Positions 25,379 through 31,682 of a stretch of DNA of 64,000 nucleotides are shown here, one piece after another. The notes beneath the pieces were generated by a model. It saw only the letters and a list, made by a program, of their open reading frames with translations. It was not told the origin of the DNA and did not search any database. The stretch spans positions 248,001 through 312,000 of the forward strand of contig NZ_JASC01000003.1 in assembly GCF_000622365.1 (NCBI RefSeq), read 5' to 3'. The translations under genes were made by a program, and so were the position numbers. The stretch's first letter is position 1, and the number at the start of each line of letters is the position of its first letter. This DNA comes from Sulfitobacter noctilucae. Lineage in GTDB: Bacteria > Pseudomonadota > Alphaproteobacteria > Rhodobacterales > Rhodobacteraceae.

Positions 25379-25504
25379 ATGTGCGCCTGATCACAGGCGG
25401 CGTTGCATTGATCCGTGATCTGCGGCTAGCTTTTGGCAGGGCACCTTTATTTTAAGCCCGACCCTTTCAAGCTCGGTTTTCCTACAGCTATTTCGGAGCA
25501 CATC

Positions 25505-26413
25505 ATGCCCAATGAAGTCGAAACCTTCGTCAAGGATTTTAAAGCCACCAAGAAGCGTTTGAATGAACTGTCGCCAAAAGAAGGCGAAAAGATCAAAAAG
25601 GCCATGGTGGCCAATCTGGAGAAAACCTGGGACGCCGAAGATGCGATGAAAGAAGCAGTGATCGAGGCGCGCACAGCGGGAGTGCCGGGCAAGAAATCCG
25701 CACCCTTTCTGAAGCACGCCAAGGTGACCAAACCCTTCAAGACATGGCAGGCGGCGCTGAAAATCTATCACGCGGATCTGGACAAATTAGAGGCGTTCAC
25801 CAAGGAGGCCAAAGAGTTGAACGCGGAACTGACAAAGCGCGTAACTACCGTTGAGAAGGATTTAAAGAAAGGCGGCGGTACAGCGGATATTCCAACGATG
25901 GCCACCATCAAGGAAGCCAAGCGCGCTTTGCCCGAGTTGAAAAAGGCCGAGAATATTCTCGGATCGACCAAAAGCTTTATGGTGATGTACGGGCTGAATA
26001 TGCAGCGAACGGTGGACGCCATCGTCAAGCAAGCTGTCGATTCAGTGACGCCCAAGGAATTTCCCGAACCGCTCGCCGATGCCAACCGTGCCAAGACCGA
26101 GAAGACGGTCGATGGTCATAGCAAAAAGATCAAGTCGGCCTGCGACGGAGCCAAATCGGCGCTCGAAGAGGACAAGATCAAGGTTGCTGAGAAACTGATA
26201 AAGGACGCGGAAAAGCTGCTTGAGACGCTGGCAGGATTCGAGAAGGAAGCGAAGCTGACCAAGACCAAGATGAAGGACGAGGTGAAGGCGGATGAGAAGT
26301 CGAAAAAGCTTCAGGCGCTGATGAAGAAGATCGGCATGGGCTACAAGACGGCAGCGGGGCAGGTTGATGAAGTCCAGAAAGAGTTGAAAGAAAAGACCAA
26401 GGCGGCGCGGTGA
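25505..26413 (+). CDS. Lysine-rich helical protein of unknown function
   Basis: A 302-residue protein with no family I recognise. It is very rich in Lys, Glu and Ala, has almost no aromatic residues and reads as continuous amphipathic helix or coiled coil (KDFKATKKRLNELSPKEGEK, later KAEKLIKDAEKLL-like patterns). A short neutral segment near 155-175 (SFMVMYGLNMQRTVDAIVKQ) could be a dimerisation helix. There is no signal peptide. The start MPNEVET is the first with an upstream GGAG. Base composition is lower in GC than neighbours, hinting at transfer. DNA- or polyanion-binding is possible from charge only. Confidence 0.75.
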   Translation: MPNEVETFVKDFKATKKRLNELSPKEGEKIKKAMVANLEKTWDAEDAMKEAVIEARTAGVPGKKSAPFLKHAKVTKPFKTWQAALKIYHADLDKLEAFTKEAKELNAELTKRVTTVEKDLKKGGGTADIPTMATIKEAKRALPELKKAENILGSTKSFMVMYGLNMQRTVDAIVKQAVDSVTPKEFPEPLADANRAKTEKTVDGHSKKIKSACDGAKSALEEDKIKVAEKLIKDAEKLLETLAGFEKEAKLTKTKMKDEVKADEKSKKLQALMKKIGMGYKTAAGQVDEVQKELKEKTKAAR

Positions 26414-26436: not shown

Positions 26437-27306
26437 CTAAAACCACTGCCCCGGTTCCATCAGCCCCAGATCAAGCAGCTGACGCGAGTGCCACTCAAAC
26501 GGTGCTGAATTGTGCCATTTGAAGGTCTCGATCTCGTATTTGCTGCCGGGGTTGCTTTTCAGCGCTTTGGCGGTGCGGAACGAGCAGATCGCCGTGGTGA
26601 TATTGTGGTGCCACGGGCAGGCATATGTGTTGTATTCTTCGTCGGAAAACGTGTGGTCCCAGCGGATTTTCAGCCCCTTTTTGGCGCGAAAAAGCGGAAT
26701 TCGGTCGATCTTGCGGCGTACGGCAGGGACGTGTTCTTCGTAACGCCAGCGCAGGCCGCCGAAGAAATCGAGTTGCCGTTCCTTGGGGTGGTCGTGGTTG
26801 TCGGCGTCCAGTCGCGCCAGCGCATAATAACCTGATCGGTCCAGATGCGCCCGGTCCAGCGAGACTGCATTGGGGTGTTGGTGCAGGTCATCGGAATAGA
26901 GGTCGATGACATAAGCCAGCATTGCATCACGCCGTTCTTCGGTATGGTAGGTCAGCATTTCGATGACATTGCGCGTCTCGCAGAACGGGAAAAACAGGTA
27001 TTCCGCATTGTAGCAATAATAGACCCATTGCCCGGCCAGAGGCTCCATCAGGGTGTTGATCGCGGTTTCCAAAGCATCCTCAGCGGACGTGTTATAATCA
27101 ACCCGCAGCACGGTTTCCTGTAGGTCGCGCGGCAGGTCAAAGATTGCGGGCATCAGCGCGATGATCGCGGCAAAGCCCATCTGCTCATGGTGGCGCAGGG
27201 TTGTGTCGATCTCGACATCGTCCTCGACCATGACAATCGCAATCGGCCCTTTGGCAAGGGTTGCGCGTTCAGCGGCGATCATATCGGAAAGGCTGGCGTA
27301 TTGCAT
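26437..27306 (-). CDS. Glycosyltransferase family 2-like protein
   Basis: A 289-residue cytoplasmic protein. The N-terminal half has an alternating strand/helix pattern resembling a GT-A nucleotide-sugar domain: [32 protein letters not shown], then [18 protein letters not shown] and [15 protein letters not shown] where GT2 proteins carry the DxD-containing strand. No unambiguous DxD is seen. The C terminus is rich in Trp and His ([20 protein letters not shown]). It is a conserved type in this bacterial group next to miaB, as far as I recall. The substrate is unknown; it is divergent from miaB. Confidence 0.6.
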
Positions 27307-27420
27307 GGCACCTCAACAGCTCTTGTTTTGCACCAGAATCGGTCAATTCGCTGTGCATTGCAAGCGTCGGGTCGCGCTGCTAAACCGCGCTTGATTTCCA
27401 GCAACCTCCGGAACCTTGCC

Positions 27421-28728
27421 ATGTCAGCGCCTAAAAAGCTCTTTATCAAGACCTATGGCTGTCAGATGAATGTCTATGACAGCGAGCGCATGGCCGAGGC
27501 GATGGGCGGGCAGGGCTATGTCGAAACCGACCGTGCCGACGATGCTGATATGATTCTGCTCAACACATGCCACATCCGCGAAAAGGCGGCGGAAAAGGTC
27601 TATTCCGAATTGGGGCGTTTGAAACCGCTCAAGGCGCTGAAGCCGGACCTCAAGATCGGGGTGGCCGGCTGTGTGGCGCAGGCTGAAGGGGCCGAGATCA
27701 TGCGCCGTCAGCCCGCGGTCGATCTGGTGGTCGGCCCGCAAAGCTATCATCGCCTGCCTCAGATGGAGGAACGTCTGAGCCGGGGCGAAACCGCGCTCGA
27801 CACCGATTTTCCGGAAGAAGACAAATTCGATCACCTCAAATCCCGCCCCAAAGCGCGGCGCGCACCTGCGGCATTTTTGACTGTGCAGGAAGGATGCGAC
27901 AAGTTCTGCGCATTTTGCGTGGTGCCCTATACCCGTGGTGCCGAAGTCAGCCGACCCGCGCCACGCGTGATGCAGGAGGCCCGCGAACTGGTGGAGCGCG
28001 GCGTGCGCGAGGTGACGCTGTTGGGCCAGAACGTGAATGCCTATCACGGTCATGAGGGCGGTCTGGCCGGATTGATCCGTGATCTGGCGGGGGTCGATGG
28101 GCTGGAGCGGATCCGCTACACCACAAGCCACCCCAACGACATGGATGATGCGCTGATTGCGGCCCATGCCGAGGTACCCGAATTGATGCCCTATCTGCAT
28201 TTGCCGGTGCAGTCGGGCTCGGACCGTATTCTGAAACGGATGAACCGCAGCCATACCGCCGAAAGCTACTTGCGGCTGATCGAGCGTATTCGCGCCGCAC
28301 GCCCCGACATTATTCTATCAGGTGATTTTATCGTGGGCTTCCCCGAAGAAACCGATGCGGATTTCGAGGCAACGATGGAATTGGTGCGGCAGGTGCGTTA
28401 CGGCTATGCCTATTCGTTCAAATACTCCACACGGCCCGGCACGCCTGCGGCAGAGCGGCCCTTGGTCGACGCCGATGTGGCAGATGATCGCCTGCAGAGA
28501 TTGCAGGCGCTGATCACGGGCCACCAGCATGACATCCAACGTGAGATGGTCGGTCGCGAGGTGTCGGTGCTGATTGAACGCAAAGGCCGCGAGGCGGGGC
28601 AGATGGTCGGCAAGTCCGAATACCTGCACTCCGTCCATATTCTCGACTGCGCGGCCCAGATTGGCGATATCGTCCGCGTCCGGGTAATCGAAGCCAAAAC
28701 CAACTCGCTTGCATCGGTTCTGGTCTGA
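27421..28728 (+). CDS. miaB: tRNA-2-methylthio-N6-dimethylallyladenosine synthase
   Basis: A 435-residue radical-SAM methylthiotransferase that modifies A37 of tRNAs reading UNN codons. Auxiliary cluster cysteines are Cys14 (GCQMN), Cys50 (NTCHIR) and Cys84 (AGCVAQ). The radical-SAM cluster is Cys159, Cys163 and Cys166 (CDKFCAFC). A C-terminal TRAM domain follows (about 375-435). The start MSAPKKLF is chosen because it begins directly before the conserved [10 protein letters not shown]; the frame is open further upstream without recognisable protein. It ends 3 bases from the convergent exported protein gene. Confidence 0.96.
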
Positions 28729-28731
28729 GCT

Positions 28732-29085
28732 TTAGTAGTTGTGCTTGCGGTGCGAGGCGCGGTCGTACCAGATGCGTTCCATTGTGGTTTTAAGCGCTGC
28801 TGGATTGCCCACAAGGCGCTGATCGCGGCAGACCCGCTCGCCAATCGCCTGCGCGGTTGAAAAATCGTATCCGACCGACACCAGCGAGTCGATGAAAACC
28901 GCATTTGGACGATCCCAGATCACTTCTTTCCAAGGGCCGCGAAAGCAGCTGACAACGATCTGGTGGCCGGTCGGGCCGTATGCACCATGGTGATGATGTT
29001 TGGCACCGCCGCCAGCGTTGGCCATCGCAGGCAAACTGACTGCGGTAGCGATAGCGATAGCGATAGAACAGATTTTAATGAACAT
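28732..29085 (-). CDS. Small exported histidine-bearing protein, unknown function
   Basis: A 117-residue protein with a signal peptide (CSIAIAIATAVSLPAMANA) cleaved near residue 22, followed by a GGGAKHHHHGAYGPTGH segment and a compact domain with two cysteines (VVSCFRGPW and RVCRDQRL) that could form a disulfide. It looks periplasmic. I recognise no named family. GGGGAGG precedes the ATG. The signal peptide is encoded partly by a short AGCGAT tandem repeat. It heads the accessory block between miaB and phoH and is convergent with miaB. Confidence 0.72.
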   Translation of the reverse strand: MFIKICSIAIAIATAVSLPAMANAGGGAKHHHHGAYGPTGHQIVVSCFRGPWKEVIWDRPNAVFIDSLVSVGYDFSTAQAIGERVCRDQRLVGNPAALKTTMERIWYDRASHRKHNY

Positions 29086-29634
29086 ATTGGCCTCCCCAGG
29101 TCCGCGCCGGCGCATCATCCGGCCAGAAAATTGTCGAACCGTCGACGCCGCAGGCGAATGTTCTGAGCACTGTCGAGGTCTGACAGATCAAGCGTTACCG
29201 AGGCGCCCCCTGCTTTCCAAGTTATTTCGTTAACAAATGGTTAATACGCATGAATTGCACCTGTTATCGCCGCAGTTCCGACTGTTTGAACCAGCGAGTC
29301 CTGTAGCAAACAGCGAAATTTCCACCCCGGCGGGAAAGAAGATTTCATCTAATTGGCCAGCGCCCCTGACACAGAATCGGTGGCGGTATTTCCACCGGGT
29401 CGCGTAGGGCGACCGAAAATATTGATCGTTGGACTACCTTTAAGCCCAATGTGTTCGGGTCGGATTGCGTGAAAAACCAATGATCCCCATGTGTTTACTG
29501 TGAAATTAAACACTAAATGTAGATATCAGCGCTTCACAGCGCCGAAAATATTACCTAACGTATGCCGATAAGCGGGGCGTCCACACGTTGGGACGGGGAT
29601 GTCTTTCGTGGGGGAATGATAAAAGGAAAATGCT
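29086..29634. other. Non-coding region between exported-protein genes
   Basis: The 549 bases between divergent genes hold no credible coding frame. They contain a CtrA-type box (29230-29244), GANTC methylation-type sites at 29296 and 29374, a small hairpin GGTCGC/GCGACC at 29398-29414, and a dyad GTGTTTA/TAAACAC near 29491-29513. The base composition is more A/T-rich than the flanking genes. Promoters for both flanking genes must lie here; an RNA gene is not excluded. Confidence 0.5.
29230..29244. promoter_or_regulatory. CtrA-type binding site
   Basis: TTAA, seven bases, TTAA matches the full CtrA consensus of alphaproteobacteria. It lies 145 bases upstream of the small exported protein gene and about 390 bases upstream of the OmpA-like gene. 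Binding is inferred from sequence only. Confidence 0.5.
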
Positions 29635-30210
29635 GTGGTGAACACAATCTCCAAAGCGATCCGCGCGGTGGCGACGCTGTCACTTGTTGCGGCGATCGCG
29701 CTGCCGGCATCATTTGCGGATGCACAAACACGTTCGCAGGGTGGACGGGACAAGGGCGTGTACACGCCAACCATCTGGGTGGATCCCGATGGCTGCGAAC
29801 ACTGGGTCATGGATGATGGTGCCGAAGGCTATATGACACCTCACACCAGCCGTCAGGGCATTCCGGTCTGCCGCCGGGGCAATGTCTGTGGCGTGATGAA
29901 CTCGGATCAGTTTTTTGCCACGGACAGCTACCGCATTCACAAGGCGGGCAAGCGGCGTCTGGCCAATTTCTTCCAAACCACAGGTGCTGTTTCCTATATT
30001 ATCACCGGCCACACCGACAGCCGCGCCTCTGATGCGTACAACATGAAGCTGAGCTATAACCGGGCCAATGCGGTTGCGGCGATTGCTGCTGCGACAGGCG
30101 CACGGATTGCCGATGTGCGCGGCTACGGCGAACGCATGCCGGTGGCTGCCAATAATTCCGCTCATGGCATGGCAAAGAACCGCCGCGTCGAAATCATTTG
30201 CATACGCTAA
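29635..30210 (+). CDS. OmpA-like peptidoglycan-binding protein with N-terminal WVDP-GC-HW domain
   Basis: A 191-residue exported protein. The signal peptide ends near residue 30 (SFADA). Residues 46-79 form a short cysteine-bounded module, WVDPDGCEHW, DDGAEGY and GIPVC. Residues 90-190 are an OmpA C-terminal-like domain with TGHTDSRASDAYNMKLSYNR, containing the Asp and Arg that bind diaminopimelate, and GYGERMPVAAN. Together this suggests an envelope protein anchored to peptidoglycan. It starts at GTG (29635 or the adjacent 29638) after AAGGA. The next gene, 11 bases downstream, repeats the first module. Confidence 0.85.
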   Translation: MVNTISKAIRAVATLSLVAAIALPASFADAQTRSQGGRDKGVYTPTIWVDPDGCEHWVMDDGAEGYMTPHTSRQGIPVCRRGNVCGVMNSDQFFATDSYRIHKAGKRRLANFFQTTGAVSYIITGHTDSRASDAYNMKLSYNRANAVAAIAAATGARIADVRGYGERMPVAANNSAHGMAKNRRVEIICIR

Positions 30211-30221
30211 GGGGACGTTTC

Positions 30222-30542
30222 GTGATCAAATCCAAAATTCTTCTCGTGACGGCCCTTGGGTTCGGACTGACTGCCTGCGGCGACTTTGAAAACGGCCTCC
30301 GCGGCTATCCGTCCGACAAGACGCGCGACCGGGGTATCAATGGTCACCATCTGAGCACGCTTCAGGCGGGCATCTGGGTCGACCCGAACGGCTGTGACCA
30401 CTGGATCATCGACGATGGTGTCGAAGGCTATCTGTCGGCGCGTCTGGACAAATTCGGCAAGCCCGTCTGTTCCGGCGTTGCACCACCAACACATACCGTG
30501 GGTGATTTCAAAGGTGGCTCGTTCATTCCGGATCCAAACTGA
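30222..30542 (+). CDS. Lipoprotein with WVDP-GC-HW domain
   Basis: A 106-residue lipoprotein. The lipobox LTAC places the lipidated cysteine at residue 19. Residues 50-83 repeat the module of the preceding OmpA-like protein: WVDPNGCDHW, DDGVEGY and GKPVC, with the same 25-residue spacing between the two cysteines. The rest is polar. The start is GTG with AAGGGGA upstream, 11 bases after the OmpA-like gene, so the two form an operon ended by a strong terminator. Function is unknown; outer-membrane location is inferred from Gly20-Asp21 being close to the lipidated Cys, which leaves some doubt. Confidence 0.85.
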   Translation: MIKSKILLVTALGFGLTACGDFENGLRGYPSDKTRDRGINGHHLSTLQAGIWVDPNGCDHWIIDDGVEGYLSARLDKFGKPVCSGVAPPTHTVGDFKGGSFIPDPN

Positions 30543-30568
30543 TCTTGGCTGACCAATGCTCCATAGCC

Positions 30569-30604
30569 GGGCCGGAGTGCGCAGCACTCCGGCCCGTTTT
30601 GCGT
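30569..30604 (+). terminator. Intrinsic terminator after the lipoprotein gene
   Basis: GGGCCGGAGTGC pairs perfectly with GCACTCCGGCCC across a 3-base loop, followed by GTTTTGCGTTT. It begins 27 bases after the stop codon. Confidence 0.92.
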
Positions 30605-30671
30605 TTGGGGGGTGTATTTTGACAGCCGCCTCCCTATCTCAAAGTTTACACCTCACACCAAGGAGCTTCCC

Positions 30672-31682
30672 TTGCCTTCAAGCGATCTGTTGACAGCGCC
30701 CTCTGCGGCCAAACCCGTTGTGATCGAATTCCCTGACAACCGCCTTTTGGTTGATCTCTGTGGTGCCTATGACGCGCATCTGGCCACCATCGAGAAAGCG
30801 TTCGAGGTTCAGATCGTGCGGCGTGGCAACCAGTTGAGCATCCTTGGCGATGCCGAGGCAAGCGCACAGGCAGGGCAGGTGCTGGGGGCGCTCTACGTAC
30901 GCCTTGAAGGCGGGCGCGCGGTGACACAGGCCGAAGTCGACAGCATGTTGCGCATGGGGGGCGCTGAAGCCGACACAGGAACGTTCCAGGGCGACCAGCT
31001 TGAAATGCCGGTGGGCGAAACGATCGAAATCCAGACCCGCAAGAAAAGGGTGGAGCCGCGCACCGAAGCGCAAAAAGCCTACGTCACCTCTTTGTTCGAC
31101 AATGAACTCGCATTTGGCATCGGCCCTGCGGGGACAGGTAAAACCTATCTTGCGGTTGCCGTCGGCGTTTCGATGTTCATCGGCGGGCATGTGGACCGGA
31201 TCATCCTCAGCCGTCCGGCGGTAGAGGCGGGCGAAAAGCTCGGATATCTGCCCGGCGATATGAAGGACAAGGTCGATCCGTACATGCAGCCCTTGTATGA
31301 CGCGCTGAACGACTTTCTCCCGGGCAAGCAACTGGCTAAACTGATCGAGGAAAAGCGCATCGAAATTGCACCCCTTGCGTTTATGCGCGGGCGCACGCTG
31401 GCCAATGCGTTTGTGGTGTTGGACGAAGCACAAAACGCCACCTCGATGCAGATGAAGATGTTTCTGACCCGCTTGGGTGAAGGCTCCCGCATGGTGATCA
31501 CCGGAGACCGCACCCAGATCGACCTGCCGCGCGGCGTTCCGTCTGGCTTGGCCGATGCGGAGCGTTTGCTGAAAACCATCCCCAAGATCAGCTTCAACTA
31601 CTTCACCTCCAAAGACGTCGTGCGCCATCCCTTGGTCGCCGCCATCATTGAGGCCTATGAAGCAGACAGCCCTACCGGCTAG
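30672..31682 (+). CDS. PhoH-family ATPase (PhoH-like, ybeZ type)
   Basis: A 336-residue P-loop NTPase. Walker A is GPAGTGKTYLAVAVG, Walker B VVLDEAQNAT, with ITGDRTQIDLPRG as a sensor motif. An N-terminal KH-like region precedes the ATPase. The start is taken as TTG with AAGGAG eight bases upstream; an upstream ATG exists but lacks a ribosome-binding site and overlaps the terminator region. In many bacteria ybeZ-ybeY-corC-lnt are adjacent and act in ribosome maturation and RNA quality control; the same order is kept here. Confidence 0.93.
   Translation: MPSSDLLTAPSAAKPVVIEFPDNRLLVDLCGAYDAHLATIEKAFEVQIVRRGNQLSILGDAEASAQAGQVLGALYVRLEGGRAVTQAEVDSMLRMGGAEADTGTFQGDQLEMPVGETIEIQTRKKRVEPRTEAQKAYVTSLFDNELAFGIGPAGTGKTYLAVAVGVSMFIGGHVDRIILSRPAVEAGEKLGYLPGDMKDKVDPYMQPLYDALNDFLPGKQLAKLIEEKRIEIAPLAFMRGRTLANAFVVLDEAQNATSMQMKMFLTRLGEGSRMVITGDRTQIDLPRGVPSGLADAERLLKTIPKISFNYFTSKDVVRHPLVAAIIEAYEADSPTG

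Follow-up and report, generated by a model that had tools for sequence, protein, structure and literature searches.

What leads two adjacent genes for exported proteins, one product with a predicted hold on the cell wall and the other with a predicted lipid anchor, to carry the same small cysteine-containing module? The question is raised by a locus of Sulfitobacter noctilucae that lies in a stretch of 64,000 nucleotides of contig NZ_JASC01000003.1 (the window). A sequence-only reading of this DNA had described the module in an OmpA-like peptidoglycan binder and in a lipoprotein encoded next to it, could name no family for it, and suggested that the pair works between the outer membrane and the wall.

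Results

A tandem gene pair between miaB and phoH

The ORF coordinates bear out the two reading frames that had been described on the forward strand with 11 nt between them. The features of the locus are as follows.

27418 to 28728, + strand: miaB, the usual upstream neighbor of the pair
29638 to 30210, + strand: gene of the OmpA-domain protein, 190 aa from GTG 29638 or 191 aa from GTG 29635, with a Sec-type signal peptide
29638 to 29724, + strand: signal peptide of the OmpA-domain protein, probably cleaved after A29 (between A-D-A and Q)
29773 to 29871, + strand: putative disulfide module, copy 1 (OmpA-domain protein), residues 46 to 78, with Cys53 and Cys78
29911 to 30183, + strand: OmpA-like peptidoglycan-binding domain (PF00691; Pfam and fold), with D127 and R142
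30222 to 30542, + strand: gene of the small lipoprotein, GTG start at 30222, 106 aa, lipobox LTAC (Cys19)
30372 to 30470, + strand: putative disulfide module, copy 2 (lipoprotein), residues 51 to 83, with Cys58 and Cys83
30568 to 30596, + strand: terminator-like stem-loop of 13 pairs (11 G-C) followed by a T-run, between the lipoprotein gene and phoH
30612 to 31682, + strand: phoH, the usual downstream neighbor of the pair, followed by ybeY, corC, and lnt to 34693

The stem-loop was one of three such sites found (shuffled sequences averaged 1.7) and had the most pairs of the three. No sigma-70-like promoter was detected between 29100 and 30700, where shuffles gave 1.1. Both genes were under purifying constraint, with dN of 0.03 to 0.21 versus dS of 0.91 to 1.71 (10 comparisons, five of six chosen relatives). 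At the locus of a Sulfitobacter sp., a 42-residue query was matched identically throughout, and the OmpA-domain protein and the lipoprotein were 91% and 93% identical to those of the window, respectively.

A shared module that matches no characterized family

The module proved to be common to both proteins: BLASTP aligned residues 46 to 78 of the first with 51 to 83 of the second without gaps, 19 of 33 positions being identical and 26 of 33 similar (E = 2e-15). The equal cysteine spacing that had been pointed out was likewise present, at 25 residues in each of the window proteins. Across the 87 tandem pairs of the survey described below, the spacing was 25 in both proteins in 69, 26 in both in 15, and mixed (25/26) in 3. 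The "HW" that had been given as part of the signature was not universal among 35 diverse module copies. Invariant in these copies were G-C-x-x-W-x-x-D-x-G-x-E and the final Cys; P, G, Y, G, and P were almost invariant. Both module cysteines were invariant in both proteins, and each module copy is predicted to be closed by a disulfide.

The module is also rare in its own surroundings. At the DNA level, the pattern W-[VIM]-D-P-[DNHY]-G-C, with up to two mismatches, was found in the window just at the two module sites (shuffles averaged 0.10), and among 15 matches to the OmpA-domain protein in the same genome, only the window's two proteins covered the module. AlphaFold gave the lipoprotein copy three short strands (residues 50 to 53, 59 to 64, and 69 to 73; pLDDT 66 to 84 by block) and modeled the OmpA-protein copy at low confidence (pLDDT 43 to 53 by block).

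Profile and sequence scans with the module against Pfam, NCBIfam, and solved structures matched no characterized domain meaningfully, in agreement with the view that the family is unnamed. Pfam gave no convincing family for the 35 module copies, the best match being DUF6440 at E = 0.0087. NCBIfam scans of both proteins and of relatives' modules gave none for the module, and among solved structures the best match (E = 0.042) was to repeats with PDG letters, again no convincing family. Comparison of the lipoprotein model with known structures by VIA-align reached Z scores of at most 2.4, the model being weak (mean pLDDT 67.6) and uninformative on the fold.

Distribution and linkage of the pair

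In an order-level draw, the module profile matched 173 of 244 genomes, all within one family (f1), which the named relatives suggest is the Rhodobacteraceae. Two copies were found in 160 of these genomes, one copy in 12, and four in one. All 12 single-copy genomes belong to one genus (g150), of which a thirteenth genome (G218) has two copies. Because 71 of the 244 genomes had no match, the unit looks dispensable. A scan of named genomes confirmed at least 581 relatives among 595 stretches, and the 80 best of these, which were kept, read by name as Rhodobacteraceae in the wide sense. In a class-level draw, no convincing match was detected among the 380 genomes outside the family. There, a narrow profile matched 5 of 385 genomes, all family members, and a broad profile matched 29; the 24 other broad-profile matches, at E of 0.003 to 0.1 and mostly short and partial, are as expected when E is counted per genome. 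In a phylum-level draw, 42 of 299 genomes matched, 13 of them in the family (two of these, G153 and G155, with chance-like E), and no match outside the family was convincing, the best having E = 8e-4 and a stop inside. Beyond a first look, scoring covered only 19 to 31 candidates in each genome, and at this depth very distant relatives may be missed.

A lipoprotein search of 149 family genomes gave matches at E ≤0.1 in 98, and five single weak matches (E of 0.07 to 0.1) were set aside. The survey comprised 90 loci, mostly one per genus, from 89 of the 93 kept family genomes (not G021, G065, G080, or G134) plus genome G150. The gene linkage seen in the window holds in other genomes: the genes were in tandem in 87 of the 90 survey loci and in 80 of 80 named loci (the best 80 of at least 581 relatives). 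Two of the three non-tandem loci lie near a contig edge, and the third is the lone lipoprotein of G150 (L078, genus g150), which is encoded away from miaB-phoH, beside glutamine synthetase. An OmpA domain was detected in the first ORF and none in the second at 84 of the 87 tandem loci. Two pairs (L093 and L096) have both modules in place and a first protein without the OmpA domain; at L080 the frame of the OmpA protein is broken, with tandem modules present. At L093 (4425 to 4922, - strand) and L096 (3483 to 3992, + strand), the first protein has a short tail in the OmpA domain's place.

miaB preceded and phoH followed the pair in 79 of 87 survey pairs. The remaining eight were five short stretches of 1.8 to 3.3 kb, two loci without one of the neighbors in the longer stretch (L079 and L092), and one without either (L094). 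Among the best 80 of at least 581 named loci, all 80 had the pair with phoH, and 78 also had miaB in the stretch. An absence set was assembled from 20 of 22 genomes chosen for having no pair or a lone copy only, and no module was detected in the miaB-phoH stretch of any of the 20. miaB and phoH lay close together in 14 of them; in four (L199, L201, L209, and L212) they were farther apart or separated by other ORFs, and miaB fell outside the stretch in two (L205 and L210). This adjacency without the pair suggests that the two genes are mostly gained or lost together.

Several other ORFs of the neighborhood were noted. In the window, 28732 to 29118 (- strand) encodes a small protein (128 aa) that is exported and has two cysteines; Pfam and PHROGs gave no match for it, and its relatives occur near the same place in three loci, L095 and two that have no module pair, L209 and L212. 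A lysine-rich ORF of 326 aa at 25433 to 26413 (+ strand) has no Pfam match, and an ORF at 26437 to 27306 (- strand), divergent from miaB in most of the loci compared, has a weak, sub-cutoff similarity to glycosyltransferase family 2 (24.7 versus 27.5 bits). In a genome without the module, an ORF in the miaB-phoH gap (L199, 2376 to 3368, - strand) reads, as judged by eye, like an outer-membrane beta-barrel.

Different predicted anchors in the two proteins

The OmpA domain attributed to the first protein was confirmed by PF00691 (47.8 bits versus a gathering threshold of 27.2; E = 1.9e-12) and by the fold, which AlphaFold modeled with pLDDT of 89 to 97 in ten-residue blocks from residue 91 on. 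In Foldseek, the top match of the model was YfiB (6iki, E = 5.5e-10), with 3td5 at E = 7.3e-9. The nearest folds of the domain include YfiB, PA0833, OprF, Pal, and an OmpA domain bound to a diaminopimelate peptide, and its profile matches to solved chains included PA0833, OprF, YiaD, and YfiB. In an alignment of 75 rows, D127 was invariant and R142 was present in at least 90%; from their spacing (15 apart) and motif, we take these residues to be the equivalent of D271/R286, the pair that holds diaminopimelate in A. baumannii OmpA. Two extra invariant cysteines in this alignment, C84 and C188, flank the domain and may form a second disulfide. A29 and Q30 at the putative cleavage site were kept in at least 90% of the rows, and a helix is predicted at residues 4 to 20 within the signal peptide. 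The lipobox pattern was absent from 83 of 87 survey first proteins. At L094 (4315 to 5037, - strand), a lipobox-like signal occurs in the OmpA-domain protein, and neither miaB nor phoH adjoins the pair in the fetched stretch. The window protein did not reach the equivalog scores of Pal (TIGR02802; 53.7 versus 125.35 bits) or YfiB (NF053585; 70.8 versus 128 bits), nor the NCBIfam cut-off of YiaD. Judged by these cut-offs, it falls within the OmpA domain family but outside Pal, YfiB, and YiaD.

The assignment of the second protein as a lipoprotein was also borne out: it has LTAC in the window, and a lenient lipobox pattern was present in 79 of the 80 second proteins from named genomes and in all 87 from the survey. 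The residue after the lipobox Cys is Gly in the window and Asp in 10 of the 80 named and 8 of the 87 survey second proteins; the +2 rule for outer membrane sorting was derived in E. coli and may not apply to this class. The lipoprotein gave no credible Pfam domain and no convincing PHROGs match, and most of its invariant columns fall in the module. Omp10 (NF041251), which it resembles as a small lipoprotein, was considered as kin and rejected because the match is confined to the signal peptide and the short segment between it and the module. In a search with NF041251, the window lipoprotein was unmatched, and 44 of 71 members matched at E ≤0.1 (best, 2.9e-5); of ten lipoproteins run singly, eight matched at E ≤0.5, with at most 20.5 bits versus a cut-off of 100. 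These matches span roughly lipoprotein residues 1 to 50-57 and profile positions 1 to 50 of 124. None of these searches placed the lipoprotein in a family.

Probable duplication and correlated change of the two modules

In a rapidly built tree (40 columns, 58 of the 87 pairs), the copies of each type fell on one side of a single branch, which requires 1 change versus 39 in shuffles. The branch separating the copies had an SH-aLRT of only 67, and 76 of 110 inner branches were unresolved. The simplest reading, supported on this short alignment, would be one old duplication that preceded the family's spread. Nothing in this tree of 58 pairs pointed to later conversion between the copies.

We compared the modules and the remaining parts of the two proteins by distance correlations corrected for phoH and miaB, in the 103 of 126 genomes left after thinning of near-copies. 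The partial correlation was 0.77 between the two modules, 0.56 between module and OmpA domain within the first protein, and 0.50 between module and remainder within the lipoprotein; all six partial correlations among the parts had p = 0.001. Within the class with 25-residue spacing in both proteins (88 genomes), the module-module value was 0.60 versus 0.53 and 0.18 within the proteins, and within the 26/26 class (13 genomes) it was 0.70 versus 0.50 and 0.52. After removal of outliers from the 25/25 class (82 genomes), the module-module value was 0.50, not above the 0.55 of module and OmpA domain.

Co-change was counted by parsimony, as observed over expected, on a phoH+miaB tree of 108 genomes. 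The value between the modules was 2.24, next to 2.27 and 2.28 inside each module. Columns of the modules co-changed less with the OmpA domain (1.37 and 1.36), the lipoprotein flanks (1.40 to 1.45), phoH (1.15 to 1.16), and miaB (1.09 to 1.11), and this order was the same on terminal branches only and on internal branches only. Among columns of 5 to 15 changes, co-change between the modules was 4.45 versus 2.87 and 2.43 with the OmpA domain, and among those of 10 to 25 changes it was 2.98 versus 1.97 and 2.02. The order persisted, on a smaller scale, after exclusion of the 20 branches on which the modules changed most (1.28 between the modules versus 1.16 and 1.15 with the OmpA domain). When the tree was built instead from the rest of the cassette (105 genomes), the between-module value was 1.52 versus 1.16 and 1.15, and in columns of 10 to 25 changes 1.85 versus 1.39 and 1.49; in the slowest columns the excess almost disappeared, at 2.25 versus 2.02 and 1.90, with 2.16 inside the OmpA domain. 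The smaller excess on the cassette tree means that some of the signal may come from cassette exchange. As co-change between the modules nearly equals that within a single module, and exceeds that with the rest of their own proteins, they may contact each other or a common partner.

One position stood out. Across the 82 genomes of the trimmed 25/25 class, mutual information between the copies peaked at the same position in both, the x of DDGxEGY (0.62 versus 0.20 in shuffles); the next column pairs were also above shuffles (0.44 versus 0.11), as relatedness alone would cause. Among 171 distinct module pairs, an aromatic x in copy 1 went with I, A, or T in copy 2 in 28 of 31 cases, and other residues did so in 6 of 140, with residue classes that were chosen after seeing the table. 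On the tree of 108 genomes, the copy-1 x was aromatic in 16 genomes through 12 changes, and copy 2 had I, A, or T in 15 of these 16 versus 5 of the 92 others. Nine supported independent contrasts gave 7.4 in the same direction, 0 opposite, and 1.6 equal (median p = 0.016), and three supported contrasts on the cassette tree gave 1.8 in the same direction and none opposite. Size compensation at x was not significant (volume correlation, -0.11; p = 0.16), and the x-x pair was outside the five best of the co-change scan. Contact between homologous positions is what a pseudo-symmetric dimer would be expected to show.

Discussion

The reading that we favor, and put forward tentatively, is that the two genes form an envelope unit in which a heterodimer of the modules bridges an outer membrane lipoprotein and a peptidoglycan binder. 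The lipidated Cys19 would anchor the lipoprotein in a membrane, most likely the outer membrane, and the OmpA-domain protein would be secreted to the periplasm and hold peptidoglycan non-covalently. Each protein would bear one small beta-rich module closed by a disulfide, and the two copies, from one duplication, would pair as a pseudo-symmetric heterodimer. Bound in this way, the two proteins together would connect the outer membrane to the wall, as Pal does in one chain. The disulfides, the location, the heterodimer, and the bridge are thus all predicted features. A module heterodimer would explain the tandem linkage, the shared module, the different anchors, and the co-change together. As for the proposal that the pair acts between outer membrane and wall, both anchors fit the earlier description and the co-evolution of the modules speaks for it; the L093 and L096 pairs without an OmpA domain and the single matches of genus g150 speak against it, and the former in particular count against a pure tether.

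The heterodimer leaves L093, L096, and the lone lipoprotein unexplained, and these are better explained if the modules have a third partner in common (an outer membrane protein, lipopolysaccharide, or a wall component), which one module would bind from the membrane side and the other from the wall side, so that both track its changes. Such a partner would account for the co-change of both modules as well, and it suits the location of most of the lipoprotein's invariant columns in the module. It would not by itself predict covariation of the homologous x positions, however, and no third gene tracks the unit among the compared neighbors, since miaB, phoH, ybeY, and corC are present without it too; we consider this explanation unlikely. 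We judge it somewhat less probable still that the two are independent envelope proteins sharing the module by descent only, with apparent co-evolution produced by cassette exchange and by bursts on few branches. The fall in co-change without the 20 branches richest in module change, its smaller size on the cassette tree, presence and absence as a cassette, and the fact that all six partial correlations reached p = 0.001, beyond module-module alone, would fit such independence. Exchange should, however, lift co-change with the OmpA domain equally, whereas that value stays lower in the subsets compared (narrowly so in the slowest cassette-tree columns), and tandem order is kept in 87 of 90 loci.

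YfiB, the top structural match of the OmpA-protein model, acts in sensing with a periplasmic partner, YfiR. A comparable redox or stress switch, in which the module disulfides report the periplasmic state, could draw on the invariance of both module cysteines in both proteins. A structural disulfide explains these cysteine pairs equally well, the YfiB cut-off was not reached (70.8 versus 128 bits), and the identified neighbors miaB, phoH, ybeY, corC, and lnt include no signaling gene; a switch of this kind seems to us improbable. Returning to the heterodimer, a wider claim built on it is slightly less probable: that a family-restricted module, duplicated once, became a dedicated heterodimer interface and made of the pair a "split Pal," an extra and separable tether in Roseobacter-type bacteria.

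The pair belongs, as a kind, with the OmpA/Pal-type links between membrane and wall. Like Pal and other OmpA-type wall anchors, it has an OmpA-like domain with conserved ligand residues, and linking membrane to wall is its likely job; unlike in Pal, the lipid anchor and the wall-binding domain are split over two proteins that share an unnamed module. For the OmpA domain, the closest solved folds and sequences include YfiB, YiaD, and PA0833, but their matches cover the OmpA-domain side and not the module from Cys to Cys, and Cys84 and Cys188 are extra here. DalA of Rhodobacter sphaeroides (RSP_1200) is likewise a Rhodobacterales lipoprotein, and it binds peptidoglycan and envelope proteins according to the available portion of PMC10470522. 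It was rejected as the same protein: SCP/PR1 domains are listed for DalA in the accessible part of PMC9275681, whereas no credible Pfam domain was detected in the window lipoprotein, and the gene downstream of DalA, RSP_1201, is described in the same portion of PMC10470522 as a predicted L,D-transpeptidase, whereas the window gene precedes phoH.

In the open-access literature, we recognized no paper on the pair and none containing the module's letters. The pair may be included among the Rhodobacterales-specific hypothetical proteins that the available part of PMC2241609 lists by locus tag, or among the vesicle OmpA proteins and lipoproteins listed by tag in that of PMC7901474. The same portion of PMC10470522 describes Lpp homologs as absent from most Alphaproteobacteria and mentions reports of outer membrane proteins covalently bound to peptidoglycan in Brucella.

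In bacteria that lack Braun's lipoprotein, attachment of the outer membrane to the wall is only partly understood. An unnamed but conserved unit of two genes, whose products show an evolutionary sign of contact with each other, would be a small, removable candidate for such an attachment in a major marine group, and its presence or absence offers contrasts between related genera.
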